Translations under genes and position numbers: made by a program
Shown here: in pieces, positions 33,509-51,300 of the stretch
Numbering within the stretch: the stretch's first letter is position 1
How the letters are laid out: each line of letters starts with the position of its first letter
The notes under the pieces: generated by a model
Told to the model about the DNA's origin: nothing
Databases searched by the model: none
What the model saw: the letters and a program-made list of their open reading frames with translations, nothing else
Assembly (NCBI GenBank): GCA_016490735.1
Contig: JAEMWC010000761.1
Location: 320,001 to 384,000 of the forward strand
Source: Pachyseris speciosa
Taxonomy: Eukaryota > Cnidaria > Anthozoa > Scleractinia > Pachyseridae
Direction of reading: 5' to 3'
Length of the DNA stretch: 64,000 nt

Positions 33509-34072
33509 ATGAGTTGTAATTCAGTAATCCACAATGAATTAAAGAATATGGGAGAATTGTCATGTTATTTTTGTGATCAGCTATTGGTCAAAGTTGTTAA
33601 AAGTGTGAAAGCACCTTGCTGTGATAATCAGAAAATGTTTAACGATGATGGTGAAAATGTTTGTCTAAATTGTGGTTCAGTTCATGGTTATGATTATTGT
33701 AAAGAGTACGTTGACTTTCATAATAATATGTATAAAATAAAGCGAAAATCTGTATATCATCGGAAGTACCATATTGAAAATGTGATAAATGGTATATGTC
33801 GTAAGAATGGACTTCAAATTTCTGTAAAAGATAAAGGCAAAATATTGAAAATATTCCAATAGATAGACACTGTCCTTCCTTTGGTGAATAAGAATCGTAA
33901 AAGGATGATAAGTACGAAATTTATGCTTAAGCAAATATTTTTAATGCTTGATCTTCCATTTGATAAAATAATAGTTACTAGATCAAAAAAGACGCTTGGA
34001 TTTTATGATCGATATTGGGTTGAGATTCTATTGTTGAGATTTGATAAGATTATTAGTATTATCAAGCAGTGA
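33509..34072 (+). pseudogene. VLTF3-like late transcription factor with an in-frame amber stop
   Basis: ORF 33509-33862 (117 codons) ends at TAG 33860-33862, and the same frame continues to 34072 with related sequence. The first part has Cys pairs at residues 19/22 and 52/55 plus CC at 37-38, suggesting a zinc ribbon, then KSVYHRKYHIENVIN. The second has KFMLKQIFLMLDLPF and KKTLGFYDRYWVEI. This pattern is that of poxvirus late transcription factor VLTF3-like proteins in large DNA viruses, which activate late promoters. The identification is by motif memory. It is the only plus-strand gene in the left arm. Confidence 0.55.
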
Positions 34073-34547
34073 ATTTTTCATCATATTTCAGTAGGTACTT
34101 ATCAATAATTGGACTATTATCAGTCACATAATCATCGATATTCTTCATTGAGATTTGTATACTTGAAGCATCAAAATCACCACTTCTCAACTTGTCTTTT
34201 ATTGAATTGAGTAGATGTTGATAGCTTTGATAAGCATATGTGCAATTCTGGATTTTCAAATCTAGGTTTTTATGCTTCATCCACCCTTGTATCAAAAGTG
34301 CTGCTGTACTGATGGCTACCAAACTAACACCACCTGTTGCCACACTTGTGGCGAGACCCCCAGTTGCAAAGATGATGGACAAGGAATTCCCCAGTAATTT
34401 CCATTTTTTGAACCGTTTAACAGCCTGTTTATGAGCCCAACACTTTCTGTGATATGTTCGGTAATAGGATTTTAATTCATTTACCTGATCTTCTGTTAAT
34501 TCACCTGAAATATGGTTCCAGTTGAATATGCTCTTTCTGTCTTTCAT
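34062..34547 (-). CDS. SLATT-like two-transmembrane protein
   Basis: 161 codons. A basic amphipathic helix (YYRTYHRKCWAHKQAVKRFK, residues 28-47) is followed by two hydrophobic segments (about 51-70 and 72-90, rich in G/A/S/T) and a C-terminal helix (YAYQSYQHLLNSIKDKL). This helix-TM-TM-helix order is that of SLATT domains, predicted pore or membrane effectors in bacterial and viral conflict systems. The match is architectural only. Alternatives are a holin-like exit protein or a capsid membrane protein. Last gene of the minus-strand cluster, overlapping the end of the VLTF3-like frame by 11 nt. Confidence 0.45.
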   Translation of the reverse strand: MKDRKSIFNWNHISGELTEDQVNELKSYYRTYHRKCWAHKQAVKRFKKWKLLGNSLSIIFATGGLATSVATGGVSLVAISTAALLIQGWMKHKNLDLKIQNCTYAYQSYQHLLNSIKDKLRSGDFDASSIQISMKNIDDYVTDNSPIIDKYLLKYDEKFTA

Positions 34548-34556
34548 ACAATATGC

Positions 34557-34976
34557 TTATATAACGATTCTGTTCAACACGCAGTACCACAAACCAGACA
34601 ATTGTCCACTTAGAGGTGACAATTTGTTAAATTTCGTTGTCATGAAACGGGGGAAAGCATAAGAATATCCTCTGTCAAGTGAATGTTTGACGTAGAATCG
34701 ACCGAAAGCATCATGTAATATTGCATGTGTTTGCAACACATTAATCCATCCAAGAGTATGCTCCAGCAAATGTGTCAGGCAACCATCACCATATCCAATT
34801 AATCCAATGTCTTCATGCTCCAAAAGGATATCTCTCACCTCAACATACTTGTTAAAATGTTTGTGATATAGAAACTGATAAACCAAAGCTGATTTCAAAA
34901 TCCTCTTGTCAACACCAGGGTTTTTCCGTTCGGCATCCCGAGTAAACCATCTCACATATCTAATTATTTTGTTCAT
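34557..34976 (-). CDS. Orphan Polinton protein, 139 aa
   Basis: Starts at ATG 34976, overlapping the end of the upstream fibre gene by 17 nt, and ends 10 nt before the SLATT-like gene, so it is part of a compact minus-strand cluster. His- and aromatic-rich middle (THLLEHTLGWINVLQTHAIL, HDAFGRFYVKHS). No TM segment or metal motif is certain, though several His could bind metal. I do not recognise it. Confidence 0.7.
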   Translation of the reverse strand: MNKIIRYVRWFTRDAERKNPGVDKRILKSALVYQFLYHKHFNKYVEVRDILLEHEDIGLIGYGDGCLTHLLEHTLGWINVLQTHAILHDAFGRFYVKHSLDRGYSYAFPRFMTTKFNKLSPLSGQLSGLWYCVLNRIVI

Positions 34977-36003
34977 TTATATTATATCGTTGGATTAAAA
35001 TTTGATGATGATCTGAAATTGTTTTTTCGTCTAATATAGAATCCAAGTACACACAGAAAAAAATAACACTACCATCAAGAGGTGCGATGGAGCTAGGATC
35101 CAAATCACCAAAAGTCATTTGCCGACTACCACTTCTGTTAGCCGCTGTAAAACTTCCAATATGTTTTTTATTCCAATAGATTTTACTTGTGTTTGTTTTT
35201 GGAGAAGATAAATTATCCCAGTGAACAGACAAGCAGTGCCAAACATTTATTTGACCCAAATCATTTACTGAATAATCTGCTATTTTTCTGAAACTTTGTA
35301 TAGATGCTGCTGAACCAAAATATACACAATTTGATTGATCAACACCACTTATAACTAAATTTGAACCATTGTAATAGCTGACAAACTTATCATAACCTCT
35401 ATTATCATGACCAAAAAGACCATTTTTCTATGGACTTCCACCTGTATTTGAATTTAATTTATAAACAATGAAGATATTAACAGCATTATTATTTAAATTG
35501 ATTTGACTTATCATTCTCTGTGATCCATTAAAGTCTAAATAATAACGTCCATTATGTTTCTCAGCCTTGGTACAAACAGTGGGTCTTATGTTCAAAGTCG
35601 GTTGCGTTGCATTATTTTCTTCATTCGAGAGATCGTACAATGTTTCAACTTTTCTGTCTGCATTCATATCTAGAAAATTATTATTCGCTCTGTCGATTTG
35701 ATAAGTACATTTAGAGTATAATCTGATGAATTCAGAAACCCACAAATCCAAAAAACTATCTCTGACAATATCTGAAACTTGTGATTTGATTACAACATGA
35801 TCAGAATCATTGCCTGCTTTTACATTAGTCAAATGTTTGTTTCCAAGATCATAGTGACCATCTTGTGTTAATGTAAAACCATTTCCATTATCACCTTTAT
35901 CACCTTTAGGACCAATTGCACCAGCATCACCTCTATCACCTTTTGGGCCTCTTTCACCAGTTCTTGTATTATCTTGATTTTGTGGAGAATTAAAAACTCC
36001 CAT
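34960..36003 (-). pseudogene. Collagen-like fibre protein 2 with lectin-like C-terminus, one amber stop
   Basis: The frame starts at ATG 36003 and runs to 34960, broken only by TAG at 35428-35430. The N-terminus MGVFNSPQNQD is followed by a short Gly-X-Y collagen segment (GERGPKGDRGDAGAIGPKGD), then a linker GFTLTQDGHYDLGNKHLTNV shared with fibre protein 1, then a beta-rich domain (FIVYKLNSN, VISGVDQSNCVYFGS, IYWNKKHIGSFTAANRSG, VIFFCVYLD) that looks like a laminin-G/concanavalin-type lectin fold. Likely trimeric spike for cell attachment. A TCTA promoter motif lies 12 nt upstream. Confidence 0.7.
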
Positions 36004-36019
36004 ATAATATTATTTTAGA
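36004..36019 (-). promoter_or_regulatory. TCTA late-type promoter motif of fibre protein 2
   Basis: On the minus strand TCTAAAATAATATTATATG: TCTA (36016-36019) with 12 nt before the ATG. It directly follows the stop codon of the upstream fibre gene. Confidence 0.6.
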
Positions 36020-39000
36020 TTAATTCATAATTACTTCAAGTGTGAATGCTGTATCAAATTCTCCACTATTGGGATGTGAATAATCAATGATTAAATAGCC
36101 TCTCGATAATGATTTGTTGACGTTGACCGTTGTGATGTTTCTACTCATAGAAGAATGTCTGTATTCAAAAATTGTTGCTGGTAATGGCAAAGGCCTACCA
36201 CCTTCAGCTTTTGTCTTGAAATAAAATATTCCGGGTTTTGTTCCTTGTATTACATACATATTCTTAATGTGAAAGTTATTGTTGTGAATGACTAAAAAAT
36301 CAGAGCCATTTATCAATACAGGCTTTAAAGCATTCTTATTATGTCCTTGTTTGGCTTTGACAAAGCAATTTAAATATTGTATTTGACCGATTATTCCATT
36401 CCCATTCAAATTTAGATCACCTCCTAATTTCGGCCTGTAAAGAGCAAATCCACCCAAATCGAAAGCCGTTTCCATGATTACGCCAGTGACACTTGAACGA
36501 AATAGATTCAAACTATTATTATGAATTCTATACCCATTCAGATTTAAATCACCACCAAGTTTAGCCTCTTTTATTAAATAGCTGTTCATATTAATATTAT
36601 TTAGCATTGTCAATTCGCCATTGTCTCCACCAAACAACCATTTTTCATTTTCTTTCACATCAAAACCATTCAAATCTAAATCAGTTTGTAATTGTATTGT
36701 TTCATTCACGATTTTATAAGCCTCTGTGAAGTCGTAAACACTTGATGGAACGTCTGCTGCTTCACCTTCAACACCATAAACAACACAATGGATATTATAT
36801 TTGACAGGATAAGTTGGGTTAGCATTAATATGAATCGTACAATACAAATATTCAGGTGGTGAACTTGAAGAAGGTTTCTCAATCCACAACAAATGTCTGG
36901 AATGATCTTCATTTCTGTTGTCAAATTTCTTTGTTACTATTTTATGGATAGTTATTCCGCTATCAGTATTGAATGCAAATCCACTGAAAGACATACCATC
37001 ATAATCAGGAAACAACCATTCAAGAATGAAAGTGTATTTACCATCCCTCAAAGGATATAAATTGAAACCAATCATGGCTATATATGATGAATCACCTTCT
37101 CTGTCCAAGTCTACATCAATGACCTTTTTTGAAATCAAATGTAATGAACGAGGTAAATTGACATATCCATTGACTGTCAAGCCATATTCAGAGCTAATTT
37201 CATCGATATCATTCATCAAATATTCGAAAGCATTCTTTGGATGAGAAGCAGATGAAATATGACTTTTATCTAATTGATCTAAATTTACGGCATCGGTTTT
37301 ATTTGTTCCTTCTTTTAAGTTTGCGAGTGTGTTATCACCCATGTCAATATCACCAGCCATTTGACCTCCGACAAGTTTAAGAAAAGGGGCCTGGTCAACA
37401 TATCTTTTGTTGGCAGCATCTGTGTTAGCAGTTGGTGTTGCACAGTTGATCACTTTGTTACCAGCAAGATTTAAATTAGCAGTCATTTCTTGTGTTCCAT
37501 CTCGAAGTAGAGTTTGACCGATACTGCTTTTTGATGCGAGATTAGTGTCAATATATGATTTATTCACAAGATCTGCTGGTTGGTTTCCTATCCCATGACC
37601 TGTAATAATAAACCCCCAAAATCCTGATTGCCTGTCATTATAACACTTCCATCTTTTTTAAGAAATTGAGAAACATCAATACCGGCAATTTCAGCATCAA
37701 CATACTTTTTGTTCACAGCATCTTGTGGGTTTGAGGGGTATCCTGCAGGTTGATGATTTTGTTCAATTTCATGTCAATATTACTACCAAACACAACATGA
37801 CCATTATCAATTTCATAAGGTGGGTCATGCACAAAGTAAGACAAATTGGTATGATAGCCATAGGCCCCATAAACGATGATATGTGTTTTGGTGTTAGACG
37901 CAGGAGCTGTGCTAAAAAGTAAAACCTCAATTAACGCTTGACCGCCACCAGTTTTTTCGATTCGGAAAAGCTTCTTCATATAACCATCAACATACGGGGT
38001 TTTGAGAAAAGGTTTTTGAAATGGCTGTCCGACGTCACGTATGTTCAATGTGCGAAGATCGAGCCCAATTGTAGCTTGGCGTGGGTCTGATGGTGAGTAA
38101 AACTCAACAACAAAAGTGTACTGACTGTTTCTCAAAGATGAAACATTAAAATGAATTTTGGATGTAAAGTTGCCTCTTCGTTTGATGAAAAAAGACAATG
38201 ACGACTTGTTTATGTGATAAGGTGATCTGTCAAAATTCTCAATTTGAAGGTTTTCCACACCACTGACTGCAGAAGACTTGGATTTGTCTTTTAACAGAAA
38301 AGCGAATGGGTTGCGTTGAGCTCCTGATGCTGAAAAAACAAGGTCATCAACATACTTTTTGTTGGCAGAATCTTTATCAGAGTTTGGAGATCCAACATTT
38401 GTTATTTTATTGTCACCCATGTCAAGATCACCAGTCATTGCATTTGTTCCATTCAATAATAATGTGTCTGCTCTGATATCTTGTATATTTTGTACAACAA
38501 AACCAAAATTCACCGCATCATAACTACTAACTGGAGATGATAAGCTAGGGAATGGTATATTTTTTATTTTATTGTTGCCCATGTCAAGATCACCAGTCAT
38601 TGCAACACTTCCATCTTTTTTAAGAAATGGAGAAACATCAATTCCAGCAATTTCAGTATCAACATACCCCTTTGTGGCTGAATCATTGTTTGCTGTTGGC
38701 GCTGCTACATTAGTCAATTTGTTACCTCCAATATTCAAATCAGAAGTCATTGCAACGCTTCCATCTTTTTTCACAAAGTTATTATTGAGATATGTTGTAC
38801 TCACTTTACCTATTACACCATCATCAACGTATTTTTTAGTTGCACAGTCTTGTGGAAGTATAGGGCGTGCAACATTGACTATTCTATGAAAACTCATTTT
38901 AACCTCACGATCAAATACAATTCTTCCTCCTTCTATTTCAAAAGCTGGGTCATGAATATGTGATAAAATGATATTAGAAAATCCATAAACACCATAAACT

Positions 39001-39749
39001 ATGACGTAATGTTTTTTATTATTTTGTAAATATGGTGAAATCAACAATAACTCCATTGATGTGGAACCATGACTTGTTTTTTCAAGGAAGAATATTCTCT
39101 TAAGATAACCATCAACAAGATGAGTCTTTGGAAATGCTCTTTTTATTGAATCCTTTCTTTCAATTATATTTGATGACAGATTGTCGTCATCGACTGTTGC
39201 ATTATTTGGGTTACCATCAGTATAAAACTCAACAACTAAAGTGTACTTTGAAACTTCCAATTGTGACAAATCAAAACGAAGAACAGTTGTAAGACCAGCA
39301 GTAGGAATAACAAAAGACAAGGCTTTTTTATTTATTGAGTAAGGGCTTTTATTATAGACTTCTAATTGTAGATTATTCGCATTTCTAAGAATAGTTGTTT
39401 TTGATACATCTTCAAGAAGAAATTTAAATGGATTAACACGTGTTCCTTCAATTGATAAAACAGCATCATTAACATATCCCAAGTTAGCAGAATCATAATG
39501 ATTTACTGGATCACCAACATTTGTCAAACGTTTATTTTCAATGTCATAATTACCATCTTGTGTTAATCTAAATTCATCACCTTTGGGACCAACAGCTCCA
39601 GTAGCTCCTTGTGGACCAATTGCACCTGTATTACCTTTTGGACCTCTATCACCTTTTTCACCTTTGGGACCAATTGGACCAGCTGGGCCTCTTTCACCAG
39701 TTCCAGTTTTCATTTTATCTTGATCTAGTGGAGAATTAAAAACTCCCAT
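36020..39749 (-). pseudogene. Collagen-like fibre protein 1 (long, repeat-rich), two frameshifts
   Basis: ATG at 39749. The N-terminus MGVFNSPLDQDK is followed by about 14 Gly-X-Y triplets (residues 16-58), then alternating repeats of the type MTGDLDMGDNKITNV...DSANKKYVDD (six or more copies) and larger beta-rich blocks (KYTLVVEFY, TSMELLLISPYLQNNKKHYV). These recall phage tail-fibre shafts. The 678-codon frame is shifted near 37745, and again in a G-run near 37612, before continuing as 37567-36020. The original protein would be about 1240 residues. Likely receptor-binding fibre. TCTA lies 13 nt upstream. Confidence 0.7.
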
Positions 39750-39766
39750 TATATCATCTTGTTAGA
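39750..39766 (-). promoter_or_regulatory. TCTA late-type promoter motif of fibre protein 1
   Basis: Minus strand TCTAACAAGATGATATAATG; TCTA at 39763-39766, 13 nt before the ATG, touching the TAA stop of the upstream ORF. Confidence 0.6.
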
Positions 39767-40003
39767 TTAATCTTCTTCATCACTGCTTTCATCTTCCAAG
39801 AATTCAGGTGGTATGGTTTCATAGATGACAGGTAGTCTCTTATTGTTTTTCAATACTTTTTGTGTCCTCCTGTATACTTCCATTTTGATTTTTTCAGCGA
39901 TTTCAAATGGTGTTTCAACATTAGAAGGATTGATTAATTTTTCGATTCTTTCTGTTTTTGGATTCTCCTGTTTTTCAACATTTTGGAAATTATTGATTGC
40001 CAT
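39767..40003 (-). CDS. Small acidic-tailed Polinton protein, 78 aa
   Basis: Between the ATPase and fibre 1. A basic/amphipathic central helix (AEKIKMEVYRRTQKVLKNNK) and an acidic end (EFLEDESSDEED). No known domain. The TCTA motif and tight spacing (16 nt to the ATPase stop) place it with late structural genes. Confidence 0.75.
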   Translation of the reverse strand: MAINNFQNVEKQENPKTERIEKLINPSNVETPFEIAEKIKMEVYRRTQKVLKNNKRLPVIYETIPPEFLEDESSDEED

Positions 40004-40019
40004 ATAATATTAGATTAGA
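40004..40019 (-). promoter_or_regulatory. Double TCTA motif upstream of the 78-aa gene
   Basis: Minus strand TCTAATCTAATATTATATG: two overlapping TCTAA units, the distal one exactly 12 nt from the ATG. Confidence 0.6.
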
Positions 40020-40658
40020 TTAAACAACACCATAAAAATTTCTCTTGATTGTTTTCATCGGCTTGTCAACATAACAGAAGGAATATGGTTTTTTGGTTGC
40101 TTCAATGTATTTCTTCTTGTCGATTCCAAGCTCCTGTGCAATCAGATTCCTTTCTCTTGATGATGGGAAATCATAGAGGCAAAAGTGGCTGCAATTCAAT
40201 CTGATTGATTTTGGACAGCCATAGAATGATTGTGTGAGATATATGACTGAACAGTTCTTGTGTCTTCCCTGAATGAAATAGCTGATTATCTGATCTTGTT
40301 TCTTGTCAGTCACGAAATCATCAAAAACAACCAATCGCTGCAAATCTGTGTCTTTTATTTGTTCAACTGGCAATATCTCTTCTTGACTGCAAACCAAGGC
40401 AGGATATCCAATGTGACCGCTTATTTCATCCATTACTTTCCGAAGATATTGATATTTGTCTTGATCTAAATTTTTTGCATAAAGATGTATCTGATCATAA
40501 TAAACCAATGGTTCCATAATCAGATGCATGAACAATGTTGTCTTTCCAGATCCAGAATTACCAGCCAGCAGCATCCTGAAAGTGTCTTTTGGCATATACG
40601 GATACAACTGTCTGAATGAATTCTTTGAACCCTGAATATCATAATTAGGGATTTCCAT
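40020..40658 (-). CDS. DNA-packaging ATPase (FtsK/HerA type, Polinton ATP)
   Basis: 212 codons. Walker A GNSGSGKT at residues 33-40, Walker B LVVFDDF at 109-115, and a YLTQSFYGCPKSIRLNCSHF segment with the sensor Gln region typical of A32-like/HerA packaging ATPases. It would pump element DNA into preformed capsids. Length and order (first gene of the minus cluster) match Polinton ATPases. Intact frame, with TCTA 12 nt upstream. Confidence 0.93.
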   Translation of the reverse strand: MEIPNYDIQGSKNSFRQLYPYMPKDTFRMLLAGNSGSGKTTLFMHLIMEPLVYYDQIHLYAKNLDQDKYQYLRKVMDEISGHIGYPALVCSQEEILPVEQIKDTDLQRLVVFDDFVTDKKQDQIISYFIQGRHKNCSVIYLTQSFYGCPKSIRLNCSHFCLYDFPSSRERNLIAQELGIDKKKYIEATKKPYSFCYVDKPMKTIKRNFYGVV

Positions 40659-40694
40659 ATGTAAATAGTTTAGATTAGTCTAACACAATTGTAT
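40659..40694. promoter_or_regulatory. Divergent late-type promoter (back-to-back TCTA)
   Basis: TAGATTAGTCTA at 40671-40682 is a palindrome giving TCTA on each strand, each exactly 12 nt from an ATG: the ATPase (minus, 40658) and the plus-strand gene (40695). This is the switch point between the two gene clusters. Confidence 0.7.
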
Positions 40695-41144
40695 ATGGAT
40701 ATAGAACGAATGAAAAGGCTTCTTAAAAGTGGAATTGAAGCTGGAAACAAAACAAGAGAAGTTCGTGATGTTATCAAGACTTATGAATACAGAAAACAGG
40801 ATGCATATGATACAACATCAGAATTGCTGAAACCCTCTATTGATGTCCAGAAGAGTGTAAAAGAAAGTGTCGACAAAAAACAGGATGAAGTCATTGAACA
40901 GTTGAAAAAAAATCAACAGGCTTTAACACAAGGACTTGATGATGTTATTGAAGCTAATCGCAGAGCAATTGTATTTGGTCAGGAACTTCCTTTAGCAGTT
41001 GAAGGACCTGAAGAAGAGGTTTTGACACACAACATATTAGCGATCGATAACAATTTCGATAGAGATGATAGAATCATATTAAGAAATCACAATCTTTTGA
41101 AACCATCCGAATTAACTCAAGTCGCCCCACAAAAACTTCTTTAA
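40695..41144 (+). CDS. Coiled-coil Polinton protein, N-terminal part
   Basis: I place the start at ATG 40695 (MDIERMKRLL), not the TTG two codons earlier, because TCTA lies exactly 12 nt before it. Rich in charged helix (SVKESVDKKQDEVIEQLKKN), likely coiled coil. It stops at 41144 after APQKLL. A second ORF at 41246-41500 with plausible continuation suggests the gene originally extended to 41500 and is frameshifted in a poly-A stretch near 41190. No known domain. Its position before the capsid genes suggests a structural or assembly role. Confidence 0.65.
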   Translation: MDIERMKRLLKSGIEAGNKTREVRDVIKTYEYRKQDAYDTTSELLKPSIDVQKSVKESVDKKQDEVIEQLKKNQQALTQGLDDVIEANRRAIVFGQELPLAVEGPEEEVLTHNILAIDNNFDRDDRIILRNHNLLKPSELTQVAPQKLL

Positions 41145-41245
41145 GAAAGGGAGAAAGCTGCCGAAAAAGCCAAGGATATGGGAAGAAGAAAAAAAAATCA
41201 TTCACTCCAGAAGAAAATGAATCTCATAAAAGAGAAATACAAACT

Positions 41246-41500
41246 TTGAAGAAATATAGAGATACGATTTCAGATGTATTAGCTTCTTACAAATACAAAA
41301 CAGGGAAAGGAATGGGTTCAAGGGATGCATTTTTGGGAGACATGCTTTCAAGACTGCAGTTACTTGGTGGGTCTATTTCAGCCGGCAACAACAGCAAAAA
41401 TGTTCAAAATGAATTCACAAAAATATTGCATACATTGAACAGACTGGGAATCCTGAAAACCGGTGAGTTGAATAAAATAATGATGAAATATCTAATGTAA
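41246..41500 (+). pseudogene. Probable C-terminal part of the coiled-coil protein
   Basis: 84 codons: RDTISDVLASYKYKTGKGMG, FLGDMLSRLQLLGG, TLNRLGILKTGELNKIMMKY. It lies 100 nt after the previous stop, with poly-A and KKAKDMGRRKK-like coding between, so it looks like the tail of the same gene after a frameshift. It ends 7 nt before the minor capsid ATG. Confidence 0.5.
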
Positions 41501-41506
41501 AAGTAT
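41491..41506 (+). promoter_or_regulatory. TCTA late-type promoter motif of the minor capsid gene
   Basis: TCTAATGTAAAAGTATATG, 12 nt from TCTA to ATG, overlapping the last codons of the preceding ORF. Confidence 0.65.
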
Positions 41507-42292
41507 ATGACAGAAATTTCATTACGATTCAACAGTAAAAACAGAGACAAAATTGGTGTCAGCAAGAGTCATGATTTTGAAAAAAGATTCAATACACCTC
41601 TTAAATTAACGAATGATTTGAAATATGAAATGGCCGTGAATGTTATCAATATGACATACAGTTGGTACAATATCAGAGATGTTTTTGAAAATAATCAAAT
41701 GAAATACAGCTATGACAAAGGTGTAAACTGGGAAACAATAACATTCGTTAACGGGATGTATTCATACGACGATATCAATAGTTACATTCATGAGTATATG
41801 AGAAAAAATAACCATGTACTGAATCCATCTGAAACAGACAAATCAAAATTCCTGTATGGTATTAACATGTATTTCGTTTTGTCAACATATCGCATTTTGA
41901 TTGAACTCAATGAAAATTATCGTGTGGATCTGAGGAATCTTGATTTCAGAAAACTTATCGGTGTCGATTCAAAATTAGTTCCAGCCACAGAATATGGAAC
42001 AAATCTACCTGATATTACAAGAGGAGTAGATGAAATTTATATCAATTGTGATATGGTGATAGATAGCATTGTTGATGGAAATAGCACAAATACAATCGCA
42101 GTTATACCAGTCACAGATCTCGTTAGAAGTTTACCTTTCACTTACAAACCTCGTTTTCTTTCATGGAATCCTGTCTCAACACATACAATCAGCTCAATAC
42201 GCTTTTATGTCACAGACTCTTCTAGAGCTCCAGTCGATTTAAATGGGATAGATTGGTATATTGAGTTATTCTTGAGAGATGTGGAATTATAA
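41507..42292 (+). CDS. Minor capsid (penton-like) protein
   Basis: 261 codons, intact. Begins TEISLRFNSKNRDKIG and contains KYEMAVNVINMTYSWYNI, TFVNGMYSYDDINSYIHEYM, DEIYINCDMVIDS, then a C-terminal WYIELFLRDVEL. This is the pattern of the Polinton minor capsid protein, a single jelly-roll penton subunit that caps the vertices. Its place between the assembly gene and the major capsid gene is standard. Assignment is from family knowledge of Polintons. Confidence 0.85.
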   Translation: MTEISLRFNSKNRDKIGVSKSHDFEKRFNTPLKLTNDLKYEMAVNVINMTYSWYNIRDVFENNQMKYSYDKGVNWETITFVNGMYSYDDINSYIHEYMRKNNHVLNPSETDKSKFLYGINMYFVLSTYRILIELNENYRVDLRNLDFRKLIGVDSKLVPATEYGTNLPDITRGVDEIYINCDMVIDSIVDGNSTNTIAVIPVTDLVRSLPFTYKPRFLSWNPVSTHTISSIRFYVTDSSRAPVDLNGIDWYIELFLRDVEL

Positions 42293-42305
42293 AACCTAAT
42301 AGTAT

Positions 42306-42554
42306 ATGAAACGGTTTGAGTTTAAAAAATATGAACAACATGGTGAAGGTATTGTGACTGATATGATCAAAACAGCTGGAAAAAAAGCAGCTGAAAAAGC
42401 AGCCACAACAATTGGTGAACATGCTGGCAAAAAAGCTGGTGACAAAATCATAGAACTTTTGAAAAAGAGAAAGTTTGGAACTGAGAGTGTGAGCCAGACT
42501 GGTGGTTTAATCAAAAGAAAGAGAGGCCGACCGCGTAAAATAACTTTTATCTAA
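42306..42554 (+). CDS. Small basic AT-hook protein between capsid genes
   Basis: 82 codons with an Ala/Lys-rich amphipathic middle (GKKAAEKAATTIGEHAGKKA) and an AT-hook KRGRPRK at residues 72-78. It probably condenses or anchors element DNA in the capsid, comparable in role to adenovirus core proteins; the role is inferred. Its stop codon overlaps the TCTAA motif of the major capsid gene. Its own upstream sequence has CCTAATAGTATATG rather than TCTA. Confidence 0.7.
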   Translation: MKRFEFKKYEQHGEGIVTDMIKTAGKKAAEKAATTIGEHAGKKAGDKIIELLKKRKFGTESVSQTGGLIKRKRGRPRKITFI

Positions 42555-42565
42555 CACAATAATAT
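42550..42565 (+). promoter_or_regulatory. TCTA late-type promoter motif of the major capsid gene
   Basis: TCTAACACAATAATATATG, TCTA to ATG spacing exactly 12 nt. The first 7 nt equal those of the 40695 gene (TCTAACACAATTGTATATG). Confidence 0.7.
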
Positions 42566-43849
42566 ATGTCAAACTATCGTGACTCAAAATATATCGAAAG
42601 ATATGAAGATGTAGTGTTCGAACTAGAGACAGCACTTATTACTGTAGTAGCAAATAATGCTCATCAGAGGAAAACAGGTTACCGTTTCGTTGTTGATAAC
42701 AGTGGAGAGACTACACCATTTGACTGGTATAATGCCCGTTTTAATGTTATTTTCAAAGAAAATAAGCTTGCAGATGGAGCTGACATTGCTGGTGCAGATC
42801 GAAATGGTATTGTTAATTCAGTTCACGCTCTTATTAACACCATTAATGTGAAAATGAATGGTATTGATGTTTATGAATGCCGTAATGCAAACCAAGCCAC
42901 AAATATTAAGTCATTGCTTGAGTATTCACAGGGTTATGCTGTAAGTCAGGGAACCAATGAGTTCTTCTATCTTGACACCAGTAGAGGCGCTGAAAACAGA
43001 GTGGCACAAGCTGCTTATAACAAAGGATTCTCAGATCGTAAAGCTTTACTTAATGGTGGTGGTGAAGTAAATGCAGAGATAGCATTGAACAGATACGGTT
43101 TTTTCAAGAGCTTTTGGGATGAAGTCATGCCTAACTCAAAAGTAGAGGTGAACCTGACACTTGAGAGTGATGACAATATGATTTGGCAAGCTACTGATGA
43201 ATGTCGTGTGATACTAACTAAATTCCAGCTAATTGTTCCTCGTATTATTTTCAATTCTACGGGAAAGTCCTTATACATGAGTAAGTATCTTGACAACAGA
43301 AAGTGGACTTACATGAGAGAAATGGTTGAGAGAGGCAATTCAACAAGACAACAGACAGCCAATTTCCGTATTTCCACAGGAATAAACAAACCCAGGCATG
43401 TCTTTGTATTCATCATCAATGATGCTAATGATTCTGATCAGACAGCCAATAAATTTCTCTATAACACCTTTTCAGTTGCAAATAACCAAACTTTGACTGA
43501 TTGTTATCTTGAGGTTGGCAATGGTAATGATTATCCAGAGGTACATTATAAACCATCAACAGAACCAACAAGAGTATTTAGAGATGTTTTGAAATATGTT
43601 CAAGCTGTAAATGATTTCAGTGAAAGTACCCTTCTTAACAGGGGCAATTTCGGTACAATATTCCCTTTCATTTATTTTGATTTGACGAAACAGAAACAGG
43701 ATATCAAAGATGGAATGACAAAACTGACTTTCAAATACACTTTGAGTGGTGTGACAAATGCTGATTACAGTGTGTATGCACTTGTGCTCTATGAACAGGA
43801 TATTGAGATGAGAAAGACTGATGGAAAGTTAATTCTGAGATCTATGTAA
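42566..43849 (+). CDS. Major capsid protein (double jelly-roll)
   Basis: 427 codons, intact. N-terminal YRDSKYIERYEDVVFELETA, then FDWYNARFNVIFKENKLADG, SVHALINTINVKMNGIDVYE, EVNLTLESDDNMIWQ, FSESTLLNRGNFGTIFPFIY and a C-terminal DYSVYALVLYEQDIEM. This is the conserved Polinton major capsid protein, whose double jelly-roll trimers form the icosahedral shell. The length fits the family. It is the best preserved long gene of the element and is under the TCTA motif. Confidence 0.92.
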   Translation: MSNYRDSKYIERYEDVVFELETALITVVANNAHQRKTGYRFVVDNSGETTPFDWYNARFNVIFKENKLADGADIAGADRNGIVNSVHALINTINVKMNGIDVYECRNANQATNIKSLLEYSQGYAVSQGTNEFFYLDTSRGAENRVAQAAYNKGFSDRKALLNGGGEVNAEIALNRYGFFKSFWDEVMPNSKVEVNLTLESDDNMIWQATDECRVILTKFQLIVPRIIFNSTGKSLYMSKYLDNRKWTYMREMVERGNSTRQQTANFRISTGINKPRHVFVFIINDANDSDQTANKFLYNTFSVANNQTLTDCYLEVGNGNDYPEVHYKPSTEPTRVFRDVLKYVQAVNDFSESTLLNRGNFGTIFPFIYFDLTKQKQDIKDGMTKLTFKYTLSGVTNADYSVYALVLYEQDIEMRKTDGKLILRSM

Positions 43850-43953
43850 ATGGAAATAATTAAATAAATTAATTAAATAAATAAATAAAAATAAATAAAT
43901 TAAATAATTAAATTACATTGTATTAAATACAATTTAGTATAAACATATATTAT
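43850..43953. repeat. (AAAT)n spacer before the next gene
   Basis: Short AT-only tract (TTAAATAAATAAATAAAAATAAAT). No TCTA precedes ATG 43954; the start is preceded by ACATATATTATATG. Confidence 0.7.
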
Positions 43954-44799
43954 ATGACTACTTATCATCCTCATGGAGTAAGACTTTCAGGAAGTCAGAA
44001 GGAAAGGCTTGCAAAAGCTATACAAACAAATTCACCGGTAACATTGAGACTTGCACATGGAGATCTCACTGGAGGTGATCAAATGATGTTGACAAAAACA
44101 CAGATAAAAAAATTAGCCAAAGCACAGAGAAATGGAACAGGTGCTGATGTAAAGATATCCAAAGCACAGATCAGAAAATCAGTCCAAGAAGGAGGTTCTC
44201 TTTGGTCCAGTCTTTTTTCACTTGGAACAAGACTATTGCCTTATGCAGGTAAAGCAGTAGCTAAGGCAGCTCCAGCATTGGCTACAGGTGCTCTTTCTTC
44301 ATTAGCAAGTCTCGGTGTTGATAAACTATTTGGGAAGAAACAAAAAGGAGGATTTCTTATTCCTAATGCCAATTTATCCCAATTATTGAATGTAGGAAAT
44401 TTATTGAATACGAGACAGATGGCTGATGTTATCCAAAAAATGCAGTATGGTGGAGACGTTGTTATAAAACCAACAAAAGCGCAGACTGGAAAGGGTATTG
44501 GAACAATACTCGCCAGCATTGGAATTCCTTTCGCTATAGAAGCAATCAGAAAATTAACTGGAAAAGGTTTGCATGTTGAAAGCAGCCGTCCAAGACGGTC
44601 ATTACCAGTTCATGTTCCAGATTCCATTGCAAAAAATAAAAGTGGTGGGAAACATGCTATGATGCCATGGCAATCCCCTCCTGTTTTTGGTACATGGGAT
44701 AACCCAATAGGCATGGGAATGAAAAAAAAAAAAGAAAAACCAAAGGAAAAGGACTTCTACTGGGCAAAAACAGTCCATTCAATTCAATCCCCATACTAG
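43954..44799 (+). CDS. KTQIKKLAKA-repeat Polinton structural protein
   Basis: 281 codons. The N-terminus has repeated MLTKTQIKKLAKAQRNGTG / VKISKAQIRKSV segments, the middle a Gly/Ala-rich hydrophobic part (LLPYAGKAVAKAAPALATGA), with several GG sites. LTGG|D fits the adenovirus-protease pattern [MIL]-x-G-G|x, so the protein may be matured by the neighbouring protease. An A12 run near 44720 is followed, in another frame, by KNSPFNSIPILGTIL ending at TAA about 44811. That ending recalls other Polintons, so the printed C-terminus is probably shifted. Function unknown; membrane-active or cement roles are possible. Confidence 0.7.
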   Translation: MTTYHPHGVRLSGSQKERLAKAIQTNSPVTLRLAHGDLTGGDQMMLTKTQIKKLAKAQRNGTGADVKISKAQIRKSVQEGGSLWSSLFSLGTRLLPYAGKAVAKAAPALATGALSSLASLGVDKLFGKKQKGGFLIPNANLSQLLNVGNLLNTRQMADVIQKMQYGGDVVIKPTKAQTGKGIGTILASIGIPFAIEAIRKLTGKGLHVESSRPRRSLPVHVPDSIAKNKSGGKHAMMPWQSPPVFGTWDNPIGMGMKKKKEKPKEKDFYWAKTVHSIQSPY

Positions 44800-44809
44800 G
44801 AACCATTTT

Positions 44810-45268
44810 GTAAATAAACCCTTATCCAACTTTGATTTAATTAATTGGGTTAAACAACTTGGAATAAAACATTTTAGAGGAGTATTTTCAAGAGACAATA
44901 TGCCGAGACAAATAAAAAAGAATGAATGTGGGATAGTCAATCTTGATTCCAAAATTGGACCTGGTACTCATTGGGTTTGTTATAGGAATTTCAAAAATGA
45001 TAGATACTGTGAATACTTTGACTCATTTGGTTTAATGATGCCAACAGAAGTACAGAAATACATGGCTACAAGTGGAAAACAACTTGAATACTCTGGTGAT
45101 GAGATACAAGAAAGGGATTCAGTATTGTGTGGATATTGGTGTTTGTACTATCTTCTTGAGAGACAAAAAGGCAGATCTATTCTGAATACAATACATAATT
45201 CCAAATTCAGTCCAACAGATACGAGTGTCAATCACAGATTCATTATAGATTACTTTGAAAATATCTAA
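44810..45268 (+). CDS. Ulp1/adenain-type cysteine protease (Polinton PRO)
   Basis: The first ATG is at 44900 (122 codons), but same-frame coding upstream (LSNFDLINWVKQLGIKHFRG from about 44827) belongs to the family, so the real start was farther 5' and has lost its ATG. Catalytic residues in the 122-codon ORF: His24 (GTHWVCY), Asp41 (YFDSFG), Gln70 (DEIQ), Cys77 (VLCGYW). It would cleave capsid precursors during maturation. Ends at a TAA that overlaps the TCTAA motif of the next gene. Confidence 0.85.
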   Translation, partial: VNKPLSNFDLINWVKQLGIKHFRGVFSRDNMPRQIKKNECGIVNLDSKIGPGTHWVCYRNFKNDRYCEYFDSFGLMMPTEVQKYMATSGKQLEYSGDEIQERDSVLCGYWCLYYLLERQKGRSILNTIHNSKFSPTDTSVNHRFIIDYFENI

Positions 45269-45280
45269 CTTAATGGTATA
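45264..45280 (+). promoter_or_regulatory. TCTA late-type promoter motif of the zinc-ribbon gene
   Basis: TCTAACTTAATGGTATAATG, 13 nt from TCTA to ATG 45281. An earlier ATG at 45273 is in a different frame. Confidence 0.5.
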
Positions 45281-45438
45281 ATGGTAAAATCATATTGTGT
45301 GAAACAGAAGAAGCAGACTGAGTGTGTACCAGGAAGCGAAACATACAAAAGACTAAAAATGGAAGAACCATGATGAAATGCAAGTGTGCTGAGTGTGGGA
45401 TCACAAAGACTAAGTTTGTCAAAGGGAAGGGAAACTAA
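45281..45438 (+). pseudogene. DUF5679-like zinc ribbon (frameshifted)
   Basis: Too short for most ORF callers. The start encodes VKSYCVKQKKQTECVPGSE and stops at about 45371. A frame change near 45357 leads to NGRTMMKCKCAECGITKTKF and a TAA at 45436. YCVK...NGR...K-x-C-x2-CG is the DUF5679 pattern found in Polintons and giant viruses. The first Cys pair is damaged (CVKQ instead of CxxC). It may once have been fused to the PLA2-like ORF that follows within 50 nt in an adjacent frame. Confidence 0.5.
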
Positions 45439-45482
45439 TTAGCCCGTCTGAAGGGGCGGGCATACTAGATTCGGCTGCAGAT

Positions 45483-46119
45483 ATGGCACTAACAGGATTT
45501 TTGGAACATGGAGTCCCTTATTTAGCGAAGAAGGGTGTTGAAATGGGTAGATATTATGCATCAGAAGCAATGAGAAATCCAAAGCTGCAAAAGAAATTAA
45601 TTGACAAAGGACTTTCCCTCGCAAAGCCTGCAATCACAAAGGTTGGGTCAGAAGCTTTGAAACAACTCTCAACAAAAGTGAGACCAAATATTCGTTACAA
45701 AACAGATATCAAAGGATTAGATTATGGCGGTGCTATTGACATTCATAAGGTTATTGACAAGCTTCCTAAACCGAAAAGTGGATGGACACCCGGAAAGTAT
45801 AAATACATGGGACCTTATAATCCCCTCGATAAACAGTTAGAGTATGATAAAAACATAGGTGAGGTCACAAAATGGAATGTCCTGCCTTACAATAAAGTAG
45901 ATGAAATAGCAGCTTATCATGATATTTGTTATGATATGAAAAAATAAAGGTGAATGTGATAGAACAATGGTCGAGTCACTAGATCAAATACCATATGGTG
46001 AGATGCCAAAATGGGGTCAAACAGCTAGATTCTTAATTGACAAAAAACAGAAACTTGGTCTTGGTGTTTCAAAAAACGGAAAAAGCCGTCGAGTGAAGAA
46101 AACTGGCAAGAAAAACTAG
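45483..46119 (+). pseudogene. Phospholipase A2-like capsid-associated protein, one frameshift
   Basis: ORF 45483-45947 (154 codons) has an amphipathic N-terminus (GFLEHGVPYLAKKGVEMGRY), then YMGPYN at residues 108-113 (calcium loop) and the catalytic pair HD in YHDICYD (145-151), the signature of parvovirus VP1-type PLA2 domains. The frame shifts in a poly-A run at about 45942 and continues to about 46119 with a basic end. In parvoviruses this activity breaches endosomal membranes; here the role is inferred. An adenovirus-like basic tail follows. Confidence 0.65.
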
Positions 46120-46166
46120 CTGATGAATTACATGCACCCATAAAACGAAATTTCACTCGGCGGCGT

Positions 46167-47039
46167 GTGATTGTAAATAAAATTGATGAAATATGGGCAA
46201 GTGATCTAGTTGAAATGCAACAGTTCAGTAAATGGAATAAAGGTTATCGATATCTTCTTATGGTTATTGATGTCTTCAGCAAATATGGTTGGATTGTCCC
46301 ATTGAAGGATAAGAAAGGTGAATCTGTCACTGAAGCATTCAAAACAATATTCAAGGAAGGCAGAAAACCACAGTATTTATGGGTCGACAAGGGAAAAGAG
46401 TTTTACAACAAACACTTGAAGGACTTGCTAGAGAAACATAGTGTACAGATGTACTCAACTGAGAATGAAGAGAAGTCATCAGTAGTTGAAAGATGGAATA
46501 GGACAATGAAGTCCAAAATGTGGAAACAGTTCACTGTTCAAGGTAATACACAGTATTTAGACATGTTACCAAAATTAGTGAAACAGTATAATAATACCAA
46601 ACATTCAAGCACAAAGATGACACCCGTTGAAGCATCTGATAAGAGGAATGAAGGAACTGTTTACTTCAATTTGTATGGTGATATGAAAACATTAAAACAG
46701 AAACCGAAATTCAAAATAGGTGATAAGGTTCGAATATCTAAGTATAAACGGAATGTGTTCGACAAGGGCTATACACCAAATTGGACTGAAGAAGTGTTTA
46801 CAGTTGATAAGATCCAGTACACTAATCCAATAACATACAAAATAAAGGATCTGAAAGGTGAAGATATTGAAGGGAGTTTTTATGAAGCTGAATTATTGAA
46901 AGCCAGACAGGATGTTTTCCGTATTGATAAAGTCATTCGCAGAGATTACAAGAAGAAACAAGCTTTGGTGAAGTGGAAGGGTTACAGTGACGAATTTAAC
47001 AGTTGGATACCATTCAAGGATTTAAAAGACATATTATAA
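46167..47039 (+). CDS. RVE-family integrase with chromodomain (Polinton INT)
   Basis: The retroviral-type catalytic triad is D13 (ASDLVEM), D74 (WVDKGKEF) and E109 (SSVVERW), a D-x34-E spacing, counted from GTG 46167. An open same-frame extension upstream (KPSSEENWQEKLADELHAPI, from about 46080) belongs to the family, so the true start lies earlier, overlapping the PLA2-like end; no ATG is visible there. The C-terminal 45 residues form a chromodomain (VIRRDYKKKQALVKWKGY, WIPFKDL) that may steer insertion to modified chromatin. Intact otherwise. It joins the element ends to target DNA, giving the 6-bp duplication. Confidence 0.92.
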   Translation: MIVNKIDEIWASDLVEMQQFSKWNKGYRYLLMVIDVFSKYGWIVPLKDKKGESVTEAFKTIFKEGRKPQYLWVDKGKEFYNKHLKDLLEKHSVQMYSTENEEKSSVVERWNRTMKSKMWKQFTVQGNTQYLDMLPKLVKQYNNTKHSSTKMTPVEASDKRNEGTVYFNLYGDMKTLKQKPKFKIGDKVRISKYKRNVFDKGYTPNWTEEVFTVDKIQYTNPITYKIKDLKGEDIEGSFYEAELLKARQDVFRIDKVIRRDYKKKQALVKWKGYSDEFNSWIPFKDLKDIL

Positions 47040-47132
47040 AGAGAAAATTATCTAACATATATGTGAGTAGACCCTACAGTAGTACATACTGTCATTTGCT
47101 ATTATGTAGCCAAGAATATTATTATTCCTGAC

Positions 47133-47192
47133 TATATTTAAACACAGGTCGAAAATGAATTAAAAAATAAATTATTATAATATAATATACAA
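47133..47192 (+). promoter_or_regulatory. Shared early-type upstream motif of the BRO-nuclease gene
   Basis: TATATTTAAACACAG then GTC and GAAAATG, ending 35 nt before ATG 47193. The polymerase gene has the same motif at the same spacing (48295-48318). No TCTA near this start. Confidence 0.5.
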
Positions 47193-48032
47193 ATGCAAAA
47201 ATATTCCTACAATAATAAAGAATTGGATGTATCAATAGATTGCTATCTTGATGATAACAATGACATTTGGTTCAGAGGAAGAGACATAGCTATTATTCTC
47301 GACTATAAAAATCCACAAAAGGCAATCAAGGATCATGTTTTATCTGATGATAGAATCTTAAGAGACCACAAAATAAGCATAAATTCACGATGTAACAAAA
47401 CGGTCCCTCGTGCTGAGGCCACTGATTCACGATGTAACAAAACGTTACCTCGTGCTGAGACCATTGAAAAAACTTTCAAATGTTTTTTTATAAATGAATC
47501 AGGATTTTATTCACTAATACTGTCCTCTAAAAAACAGGAAGCAGCAAAATTTAAACATTGGGTTACATCTAAAGTGTTGCCATCAATCAGAAAACAGGGG
47601 TATTACAATCAGTTCAATGACAGAAGCAATAATATGCTGATGATTGAAAGTGAAGATGATCTGCACTACAAGATTGTGTCATTCATCAGAAAGAAATATG
47701 AAGACGCATTAATGGTGGCGGGATTAGGTGAAAATCAAATAAGCCCGAACATGCGAATCAGAAGTTATAAGAAAGGATATATGGCTGGACAGTGTGATTT
47801 AATGCTGATGAATCCCACAAGAAAACACAGTGCTCTTTGTCTTGAATTCAAAAGCCCAACAGGTGTGTATAAAGTGTCAGACAAACAGTCTGATATGAAG
47901 CTAATGTATGAGAAAAACAACTGCAAATACATCATGAGCAATAGTTTCGAAGACTTGATTCATGAAATAACTAAACACATGGAAGAGAGCAAATTATACT
48001 TATCAAGAAGAGAAAGATATTTAAAAAAATAA
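47193..48032 (+). CDS. BRO-N domain fused to a VRR-NUC-like nuclease
   Basis: 279 codons, intact. Residues about 8-140 form a BRO-N domain (DIWFRGRDIAIILDYKNPQK, INESGFYSLILSSKK, FKHWVTSKVLPSIRKQGYY), a DNA-binding module of baculovirus BRO proteins and phage antirepressors. Residues about 155-260 resemble a VRR-NUC/PD-(D/E)xK nuclease: AGQCDLMLMN and LCLEFKSPTG give the D...ExK residues. The BRO part holds an in-frame 42-bp tandem duplication (SRCNKTVPRAEATD / SRCNKTLPRAETIE, residues 65-93). Possible roles are Holliday-junction or genome processing, or regulation. Confidence 0.75.
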   Translation: MQKYSYNNKELDVSIDCYLDDNNDIWFRGRDIAIILDYKNPQKAIKDHVLSDDRILRDHKISINSRCNKTVPRAEATDSRCNKTLPRAETIEKTFKCFFINESGFYSLILSSKKQEAAKFKHWVTSKVLPSIRKQGYYNQFNDRSNNMLMIESEDDLHYKIVSFIRKKYEDALMVAGLGENQISPNMRIRSYKKGYMAGQCDLMLMNPTRKHSALCLEFKSPTGVYKVSDKQSDMKLMYEKNNCKYIMSNSFEDLIHEITKHMEESKLYLSRRERYLKK

Positions 48033-48050
48033 TTTATATAACTATATATT

Positions 48051-48248
48051 ATGGAGAATCAAAATGTTAAGAGAGGTCGGGGAAGGCCTAGAGTTCTCAG
48101 TGATGAGGAAAGAAAAAAACACAAGGCTACCTATATGCTAAATAAAGAATGGTTCTGTAACATATGTAAGACAGGACGTAACTACACAATGGCAGGGAAA
48201 TCTTGTCATATTAAAACAAAAAAACATCAAAAAAATATTCTTCAATAA
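48051..48248 (+). CDS. Small AT-hook plus U1-like zinc-finger protein
   Basis: 65 codons. AT-hook-like KRGRGRPR at residues 7-14 and a C2H2 finger C36-x2-C39-x13-H53-x5-H59 of the U1/matrin type. A putative DNA- or RNA-binding regulator between the BRO-nuclease and polymerase genes. Spacing (18 nt and 104 nt) suggests the early cluster. Start ATATATTATG, no TCTA. Confidence 0.75.
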   Translation: MENQNVKRGRGRPRVLSDEERKKHKATYMLNKEWFCNICKTGRNYTMAGKSCHIKTKKHQKNILQ

Positions 48249-48294
48249 TTACAATTCAAAAGGATCCAGTAATTGGATCAATTGAATTCTCAAC

Positions 48295-48352
48295 CATATT
48301 TAAACGCAGACGGAAATGTTTTAAAGAAATAATAACTATAGATATATTATAA
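48295..48352 (+). promoter_or_regulatory. Shared early-type upstream motif of the polymerase gene
   Basis: CATATTTAAACGCAG then AC and GGAAATG, ending 34 nt before ATG 48353; compare 47133-47157. Confidence 0.5.
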
Positions 48353-51300
48353 ATGGAAAAAATTATCGAAACTAGTAGTAATATGGACAAGAAAAGTCTC
48401 AAAAAATTGAGCAAATCTAAGCTAATCGAGTTGTTGTTGAAGCAACAGAAGAAACCAAAAGTTATTATAGTTGATGACACAAAACCTGTACCTAAACCAA
48501 GAACAAGACCAATTCCTGCCCCAAGGACGAAAAGACCAACAGTGAAAGAATTGGTTGATTATTTTGAGAGGAAAAGATTACCAGCTCCACCTGCTGAATG
48601 GTTGGAAGAAATAGAGCAATTGAAAAAGAGACCAATTCCCGCCCCAAGAGCCAAAAAGCCTGTGCCGGTTCCAACACCCAGAACAAAAATAGAGCAAACA
48701 GAGAAAGCTCTGAAGGGCTTCACAAAATCTTTTGAAATCAGTATAAAAAATAACAAAGACCCGCTTGCGCAACTGCAAAACACAAGAAAGGCTGTTGCAT
48801 ATAATATTATAAAATTGTTGAATGAAGTGAAAGGACTGAAATTTGTTGAAACACTCAAGGTAACATTTACAAAAATGACTGACGGACAATTAGAGTTTAA
48901 AACCGCATATTTCAACAGTGTAGCTCAAACAATTGTGAATAATCTGCAAGTAACTGAATCACTACAGTTGTCAAAAGACCAAATAATGAATAAGATTGCA
49001 GTTTGGGTATCTGAAGGTTCAGGTTGGACAATTGAATCTGTTGACAGCCATTACCTCAATGTTGTGAAATATGCGCCAATGAAGGGCTCCTCATACATTA
49101 AACTACCGAATGAACTCAGAAACAGTGCAAAGGGTTTAATTAACTTGAAAAATGAGGATAATGAATGCTTCCGATGGTGCCACATCAGACACCTGAACCC
49201 ACAAGAGAAATACCCACAGAGGGTCAAAAAATCAGACAAGCAATACATTGAAAAATTGGATTATACAGGGATTGAATTTCCAGTGACTACCAAACATTAC
49301 AATAAGATTGAAAAACAAAGTGAGATCAACATCAATGTATTCGGTTATGAGGAGAAACAACCTTATCCAATATATGTATCAAAAGAGAAATATGCAGACT
49401 GCTTGAATCTGCTTCTAATAACTGAAAATGAAAACAAGCATTATGTGCTAATAAAAGATTTCAATAAGTTCATGTACAATCAAACAAAGCACAAAGAAAG
49501 AAAACACTTTTGTATGCATTGCTTACAGTGTTTCAGCTCTGAAAGGGTTCTGAATGATCACAAGGGCAACTGCATGCAAGTAAATGGCACACAGGCAATA
49601 AAAATGCCAAACAAAGATAACAACATACTGAAATTCAACAACTTTCATAAACAACAGCAGGTACCATTTGTGATCTATGCTGATTTTGAGGCCATCACTG
49701 AAAAAATACACGGTTGTCAACCCAACAATGATAAATCATACACTGAAGCCTATCAGAGCATACTGACTGTGGCCACGGCTATAAAGTAGTTTGTTGTTAT
49801 GATGATAAATACAGCAAACCAGCAGTAATATACAGGGGTGAAAAGGCTGTGTACAAATTCATGAAAGCTATGCTGGAGGAGGTCAAATATTGCAAGAATG
49901 TTGTGAAAAAAAATTTTAACAAACCATTGAAAATGACTAAAGATGATGAAGAGAAATTCCAAAAAGTCAAAGTTTGTCACATTTGTGATAAAAAATACAC
50001 TGACAAAGATATCCGAGTTCGAGATCATTGTCACATCACTGGTAAATACAGAGGTTCTGCTCACCAAGATTGTAATCTGAAACTCAGAGTGAACCCAGAA
50101 GAAATAAAAATACCTGTTATATTCCACAATCTGAGAGGCTATGATAGTCATTTTATTATGCAGGAGATTGGAGCCATTGTTAAGAAGCACACTTACAAAA
50201 ACAAGAAAGGTGAAGACTGTCAAATGAACATCAATGCTATCCCAAATAACATGGAGAAGTATATGGCTTTCATGCTTGGCAACCACTTGACCTTCATTGA
50301 TAGTTTCCAGTTCATGAGCTCCAGTTTGGAAAAACTTGTAGGCAATCTACCAAAAGAAGCCTTAAAATTCACCTCACAAGAGTTCAAGGGAAAGGATCTT
50401 AATCTGATGGCACAGAAAGGTGTTTATCCTTACGACTACATGGACAGTTTCGATCAATTCAATCAGAAGCTGCCCTCAAAAGAAGAATTCTATAGCATAC
50501 TGAGTGATGAGCATATATCAGATGAAGACTATACGCATGCTCAGACTGTTTGGAAAGCATTCTCTTTGAAAAACATGGGTGATTATCATGACCTGTACCT
50601 TAAAACAGATGTACTCCTACTGGCTGATGTATTTGAAAACTTCAGAAAAACATGCCTTGAGTACTATAAACTGGACCCGTGTCACTATTTCACGTCTCCA
50701 GGGCTATCATGGGATGCCATGCTTAAAATGACTGACATTAAACTAGAATTGATGACTGATATTGATATGTTCCAGTTCATTGAAAAGGGTCTGCGCGGTG
50801 GTATCAGCTATATTGCCAACCGTTACGGTAAAGCAAATAATAAATACATGAAAGAGTATGACGAGAAGGCGCCCTCGAAGTACATCGTGTATCTTGATGC
50901 TAATAATTTGTATGGTTGGGCTATGAGTCAATATTTACCAAAAGGCGGATTCAGATGGATGACACAAAAACAGATCAATAATTTAGACCTGGCTGTCTAT
51001 AAAGAAGATAGTGCAAAGGGTTTGATACTTGAAGTTGACCTCAAATACCCCCAAGAGTTACATGATCTACATAATGACTACCCACTTGGGCCGGAAAAGA
51101 TTAAAGTGACTGGGGACATGCTATCAGATTATTGTAAAAACATAGCAAAGAAATACAATATATCAACTGGTCTGGTACATAAACTAATACCAACATTAAG
51201 CAACAAAGAAAAATACGTGCTCCATTATAGGAACCTCCAATTATATACTGATCTCGGTTTGAAAATAACTAAAATCCATCGAGTGTTAGAATTCAATCAG

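Follow-up and report, generated by a model that had tools for sequence, protein, structure and literature searches.

The 64,000-nt stretch of Pachyseris speciosa contig JAEMWC010000761.1 analysed here (the window, whose internal positions serve as coordinates throughout) contains a whole Polinton. In this element the word TCTA stands 12 or 13 nt ahead of the start codons of capsid, minor capsid, fibre, packaging-ATPase and zinc-ribbon genes. The position is conserved among copies and the replication genes carry other upstream sequences, a split that follows gene function. The left-terminal gene belongs to a VLTF3-like family whose members are linked to the gene for the major capsid protein (MCP). 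As the best overall explanation we favour, with a probability of about 0.6, a viral late-promoter class in which a VLTF3-like factor would drive late genes from TCTA via a polymerase.

33148..53151, no strand: whole Polinton, with terminal inverted repeats and duplication
42566..43849, plus strand: MCP, a double jelly roll in the predicted structure

TCTA occupies a fixed position ahead of gene starts

The gap between TCTA and ATG is exactly 12 nt at six genes and 13 nt at two, together 8 of 16 starts.

36016..36019, minus strand: TCTA, gap 12, fibre 2 (36003)
39763..39766, minus strand: TCTA, gap 13, fibre 1 (39749)
40016..40019, minus strand: TCTA, gap 12, 78-aa gene (40003), with a further TCTA at gap 7
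40671..40674, minus strand: TCTA, gap 12, packaging ATPase (40658)
40679..40682, plus strand: TCTA, gap 12, gene 40695
41491..41494, plus strand: TCTA, gap 12, minor capsid (41507)
42550..42553, plus strand: TCTA, gap 12, MCP (42566)
45264..45267, plus strand: TCTA, gap 13, zinc-ribbon open reading frame (ORF) starting at 45281

Direct reading of the DNA bears out the initial annotation, which had placed TCTA at these distances before the same eight genes. Its zinc ribbon is the CxxC-bearing ORF at 45281; the ORF at 48051 was rejected for that role, as it has TATA at gap 12 and 45281 fits. The starts counted were 33509, 34547 (minus), 34976 (minus), 36003 (minus), 39749 (minus), 40003 (minus), 40658 (minus), 40695, 41507, 42306, 42566, 43954, 45281, 47193, 48051 and 48353. 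Excluded were 37567, which has a GTG start, and 44900 and 45483, whose frames are open upstream of the listed ATG. For the latter, a PLA2 frame, this also led us to reject a separate gene start, and a GC-rich hairpin before it, kept in copies, was dropped as a terminator since the frame is open across the hairpin.

Given a TCTA density in the element of 0.0033 per base and strand, the binomial P for 8 of 16 starts is 4.9e-14, and it is 8e-10 once all 4-mers and 64 positions are allowed for. Dinucleotide shuffling, repeated 1,000 times, did not reproduce the positional enrichment. It was applied to 17 upstream regions, with 44900 and 45483 added to the list above and 45281 omitted: TCTA reached gap 12 at most twice, against six observed, and the maximum for any 4-mer at any position was five. 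Of 866 other ATGs in the element, 0.35% have TCTA at gap 12 and 0.23% have it at gap 13. The extended form TCTAA-N8-TATATG has five exact matches in the 64 kb, every one at a gene start of the element. Once two mismatches are tolerated, the window shows no enrichment of this form (37 found, 32.4 expected), and TCTA with an ATG 6-10 nt on is rarer than in shuffles (33 against 56). As the loose motif is unenriched, the signal is the position before real starts rather than the bare motif.

The position is kept among related copies

Close copies in the same genome were read around the MCP (30 copies, L012-L041, the window's own included) and at two other regions (20 each, L042-L061 and L062-L081). 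Copies without the ATG or with an unmatched start were excluded from the counts, and the copies, which are related, are 95-100% alike in the MCP. TCTA precedes the MCP in 30/30 (50/50 with the second set described below, window copy counted). It stands at gap 12 or 13 before the minor capsid gene in 27/29 (30 examined; one other has it at gap 11 and one lacks it). With 20 copies examined for each gene, the same position is occupied in 10/11 at the 78-aa gene and in all copies counted at the ATPase (12/12), 40695 (19/19) and the zinc ribbon (12/12); at fibre 1 TCTA is present in 12/15, nine times at gap 13 and three times at gap 12. Fibre 1 and the zinc ribbon retain the word though their upstream flanks differ strongly among copies.

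A second, partly divergent set was collected with a foreign MCP (P0057, 62% identical to that of the window) as bait. From 98 placements listed, some of them shared with the close-copy listing, we picked 20 that differed in frame length and contig, and all 20 have TCTA at gap 12 ahead of the MCP. The 45-nt stretches upstream take 15 forms; two stretches are identical to the window's, so the set is mixed and not uniformly distant. The motif is invariant while the third positions of the first codons differ by 0.15 and the flank by 0.48 per site (ungapped, so inflated). In twelve second-set copies TCTA was found at gap 12 before 9/11 fibre, 9/11 ATPase, 10/11 minor capsid and 3/8 40695 starts; the 78-aa gene was read in 0/12 copies, and one 40695 reading was left out because it began at an internal ATG. 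The exceptions include two fibres and one ATPase with TATA at gap 12, and one ATPase and one minor capsid gene with TCTA at gap 10. At gap 12-13, TCTA was seen before none of 20 VLTF3-like genes and none of ten other second-set starts (two BRO, four Zn and four polB, read out of 30 sought); one of the Zn starts has the word at gap 14, and the reading of one BRO start is doubtful. In sum, TCTA at gap 12 precedes 51/61 capsid, fibre, ATPase and 40695 starts of this set, against 0/30 VLTF3-like, polB, BRO and Zn starts at gap 12-13 (Fisher P 8e-16, which is only descriptive because the copies are related).

A TATA variant and an early-type box

A feature missing from the initial annotation is TATA at gap 12-14, present before 34547, 42306 (gap 14), 43954, BRO (gap 13), 48051 and polB.

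43938..43941, plus strand: TATA, gap 12, gene 43954, a variant of the late word
42288..42291, plus strand: TATA, gap 14, gene 42306
48337..48340, plus strand: TATA, gap 12, polB (48353)
47135..47147, plus strand: early-type TATTTAAACACAG ahead of BRO (47193)
48297..48309, plus strand: early-type TATTTAAACGCAG ahead of polB (48353)

Among close copies TATA replaces TCTA at 43954 in 27/28 and at 42306, with gap 14, in 28/28 (30 examined for each), at polB in 10/10 and at 48051 in 9/12 (seven at gap 12, two at gap 13; 20 examined for each). The early motif TATTTAAACRCAG has two exact matches in the 64 kb, namely the BRO and polB sites listed above; with three mismatches it shows no enrichment (48 found, 61 expected). 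A TATTTAAA-type box lies about 50 nt ahead of the ATG at both genes. The motif is near-exact in close copies and variable in the second set (TACTTAAAC, TATTTAAAA, TATATAAAC, or none).

The proposal that a Polinton has two promoter classes, one with TCTA and one with an early-type motif, holds insofar as the classes follow gene function and are kept across copies. The separation is not strict, however. TATA occupies the late position of several genes, 40695 is often without TCTA (5/8 read second-set copies), and TCTAAC stands at gap 12 directly ahead of BRO in 4/19 close copies, in two of them together with the TATTTAAA box. Promoter pieces are therefore exchanged. At window 47050-47063, about 140 nt upstream of BRO, there is a TCTAAC word resembling the one directly ahead of BRO in those four copies; this would fit the insertion of a promoter piece between the word and BRO in the window copy.

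The left-terminal gene belongs to a VLTF3-like family

By profile match, the left-terminal gene family carries a Pox_VLTF3 domain. This gene, which the initial annotation did not include, is a candidate reader of the late word that would need no giant virus.

33509..33862, plus strand: VLTF3-like late transcription factor, first piece, with a zinc ribbon and the conserved KSVYHRKY stretch; the gene is interrupted in the window copy
33881..34072, plus strand: VLTF3-like gene, second piece, in a separate reading frame, matching the end of the Pox_VLTF3 profile (E 0.032)

Seven of eight full-length homologues scanned exceed the Pfam cut-off for Pox_VLTF3 (PF04947); the window's own pieces fall under it. 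The homologues, about 186 aa long, contain the zinc ribbon. No stop interrupts 145 of 150 scored genomic copies, and at least 16 copies lie 7.3-9.6 kb before an MCP. The predicted model of the protein resembles the TFIIB cyclin fold, and its BFVD structure matches include VLTF3 and TFIIB names. The best structural match is an unnamed protein (BFVD M4QPM5) of Tetraselmis viridis virus S1, which we take to be a Polinton-like virus. No convincing hit came from searching PDB sequences with the VLTF3 and MCP profiles.

Neither the late word nor the polB/BRO box was found upstream of the VLTF3-like gene in 20 copies (L102-L121). A conserved TCTC/TCTT-centred core is present there, with ATCTCA no more than 40 nt from the ATG in 17/20 and ATATCTCATATAATAGTATAGA exactly common to eight. 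In 9/20 copies TGACGTCA occurs 34-45 nt ahead of the ATG, against once in 265,682 nt of other pieces; the window's gene is without it at that place. We take TGACGTCA to be a CRE/ATF site, also used by adenovirus early promoters, and control of the first viral gene by the host through this CRE-like word is possible.

A proposed late programme and its alternatives

In the proposed mechanism the late core would be TCTA or, less often, TATA, placed in AT-rich surroundings 12-13 nt ahead of the ATG, and would serve the capsid, minor capsid, fibre, packaging-ATPase and zinc-ribbon genes. The replication genes and the VLTF3-like gene would depend on other upstream sequence: the TATTTAAA-type box for polB and BRO, and the TCTC/TCTT-centred core, with TGACGTCA in some copies, for VLTF3. 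Host RNA polymerase II (Pol II) and host factors would first transcribe VLTF3, polB and the nuclease; the VLTF3-like protein, with its zinc ribbon and one putative TFIIB-type cyclin fold, would then recruit to TCTA a polymerase that is presumably host Pol II. Its family and its linkage to the MCP suggest that this protein acts on the word.

Initiation would occur no more than about 16 nt ahead of the ATG, leaving late leaders very short or absent. Neighbouring genes around the motif are separated by 11-17 nt, and the ATPase (40658, minus) and 40695 (plus) diverge from a 36-nt spacer in which their TCTA motifs stand back to back; initiation should therefore lie within the last 16 nt or inside the neighbouring gene. 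A Pol II TATA box acts 25-30 nt upstream of the RNA start, which makes an initiator-like or viral-type element the likelier role for TCTA. What we infer in this programme is its timing, its start sites and the identity of the polymerase. The fullest version would be a three-step programme that the element runs by itself. A terminal gene for a one-cyclin TFIIB/VLTF3 factor would answer to host (CRE-like) control, the replication genes would have TATA-type promoters, and the capsid genes would be driven from TCTA, read by the factor through host Pol II to give nearly leaderless mRNAs. This version is tentative, and we lean somewhat against it as a whole.

TCTA could instead belong, as late promoter, to a giant virus infecting this host, and the polymerase of that virus would then transcribe the Polinton capsid genes as happens with virophages. 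According to passages in PMC8547959 and PMC10945749, TCTA is the late core in CroV and in endogenous mavirus-like elements (EMALEs) of the mavirus type, and only type-4 EMALEs, which bear TCTA, respond to CroV. The present family, however, has its own VLTF3-like gene, mostly without stops, and no giant virus of this host turned up, though no search for one was made; we consider such a hijack unlikely. We also doubt that host control suffices, with TCTA and TATA as an ordinary Pol II core element, no viral factor, and a split that merely tracks gene position. TATA does stand at the same position before several genes, early ones too, but a TATA box, which starts RNA 25-30 nt further on, would be too near the ATG at 12-13 nt, most capsid starts have TCTA rather than TATA, and VLTF3 has different words.

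A signal at the RNA level, for translation re-initiation or polycistronic RNA processing at short gene junctions, would suit the several genes 11-17 nt apart in which the motif follows the upstream stop codon. It is quite improbable given that the ATPase and 40695 lead two diverging runs and both have the motif, that fibre 1 and the zinc ribbon keep TCTA behind other neighbours, and that most late genes are without an AG acceptor between TCTA and ATG. That the pattern arose by chance, or is simply inherited among young copies, is very unlikely despite the high MCP identity of the close copies, since enrichment within the single element already has P 4.9e-14, the shuffles also disfavour chance, and the motif is fixed in the second MCP set while third positions and flank diverge.

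The element and wider searches

Several Polinton/Maverick hallmarks are present besides the double jelly-roll MCP. Terminal inverted repeat arms lie at 33146-33444 and 52831-53153, the 6-bp target duplication GAAATC flanks both ends, and a domain scan identified an rve integrase and an A32-type packaging ATPase. A C5-type protease may be present, given a Peptidase_C5 match (E 0.0061) under the curated cut-off. The putative polB is split over two ORFs, the first with nothing in Pfam and the second with only Endonuclease_7; we presume the name polB to be right from the call in the initial annotation and a DTDS motif. No RNA polymerase family matched among 19 element ORFs scanned. A 161-aa ORF (window 34062-34547, minus) has a SLATT_1-like match (E 2e-4, under cut-off), a domain known from bacterial defence systems. 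PIF1-like helicase pieces flank the Polinton at window 32491-32802 on the left and 53775-54038 on the right (the latter judged by eye), and it may therefore lie inside a Helitron.

Scans with few short patterns each, in which absence weighs little, found no relatives of the MCP, polB piece or VLTF3 in viral contigs and none of the MCP in genome contigs or phages. Of the 11 loci returned by the VLTF3 scan of genome contigs, ten lie in Lokiarchaeota and match 23-26 residues of the zinc-ribbon stretch. The eleventh (L009:3363-3833), on a contig in a Gastranaerophilales metagenome-assembled genome, is part of a Polinton fragment. Besides the VLTF3-like ORF, the fragment has BRO, an 83-aa ORF and a polB-like ORF that shares 52% identity with that of the window. 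No capsid gene was seen in this fragment, TCTA stands at gap 12-13 before 0/5 gene starts read, and an ATPase search of the metagenome-assembled genome found nothing; the contig is probably misbinned. The Endonuclease_7 domain that opens the second polB piece of the window (49849-52152) also occurs at L009:1091-3352, there below cut-off.

Relation to known late-transcription systems

Polintons have been assigned a place close to the root of many DNA viruses of eukaryotes, and the portions of the literature examined carry no description of when their capsids are produced. The conserved late word, together with the VLTF3-type gene linked to the MCP, makes it possible to test how Polintons relate to the late transcription of giant viruses, in a genome that has thousands of candidate copies; the TCTA rule also gives a sequence criterion to separate gene classes and fix start codons. 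If the three-step programme is true, the giant-virus late switch would extend beyond Nucleocytoviricota and act on a cellular polymerase. VLTF2 and VLTF3 have been called undetectable outside Nucleocytoviricota (PMC11253617). Term searches within the available parts of PMC11071308, PMC11071296, PMC10120064, PMC7805220, PMC8097293 and PMC10328495 returned no VLTF and no Polinton promoter code. Nor was a promoter code or VLTF3 in animal Polintons found described in the partial literature searched, which mostly excludes subscription journals.

The Polinton homologues share the Pfam Pox_VLTF3 domain and a zinc ribbon with the VLTF3 (A2L) of poxviruses and Nucleocytoviricota. A2L has a known role in poxvirus late genes. 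The Polinton protein differs in being about 186 aa long and in belonging to an integrase-bearing element in which no RNA polymerase gene is recognised.

As to sequence, the initial annotation was right to compare the element with CroV and mavirus. In the sections seen of PMC5294985, PMC8547959 and PMC13196603, the late promoter of CroV/ChlorV and the promoter of mavirus (EMALE type 4) both feature TCTA, set in AT-rich DNA, ahead of late or virion genes, and a TCTA core likewise precedes the putatively late genes here. The likeness concerns the word itself; the host here is an animal-type genome rather than a protist with a giant virus, and the Polinton family has its own VLTF3-like gene. VLTF3, capsid genes and an adintovirus-like (Polinton-type) polymerase have been reported in Amoebidium insertions, the same gene set in a unicellular host, with no promoter code described in the part of that report seen (PMC11244446).

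If the model holds, the Polinton would work much as the late promoters of beta- and gammaherpesviruses do. There a general factor of the virus, a TBP mimic, directs host Pol II to late genes through a modified TATA-like word; in the Polinton, which is unrelated to these viruses, a TFIIB-type protein would take that part.
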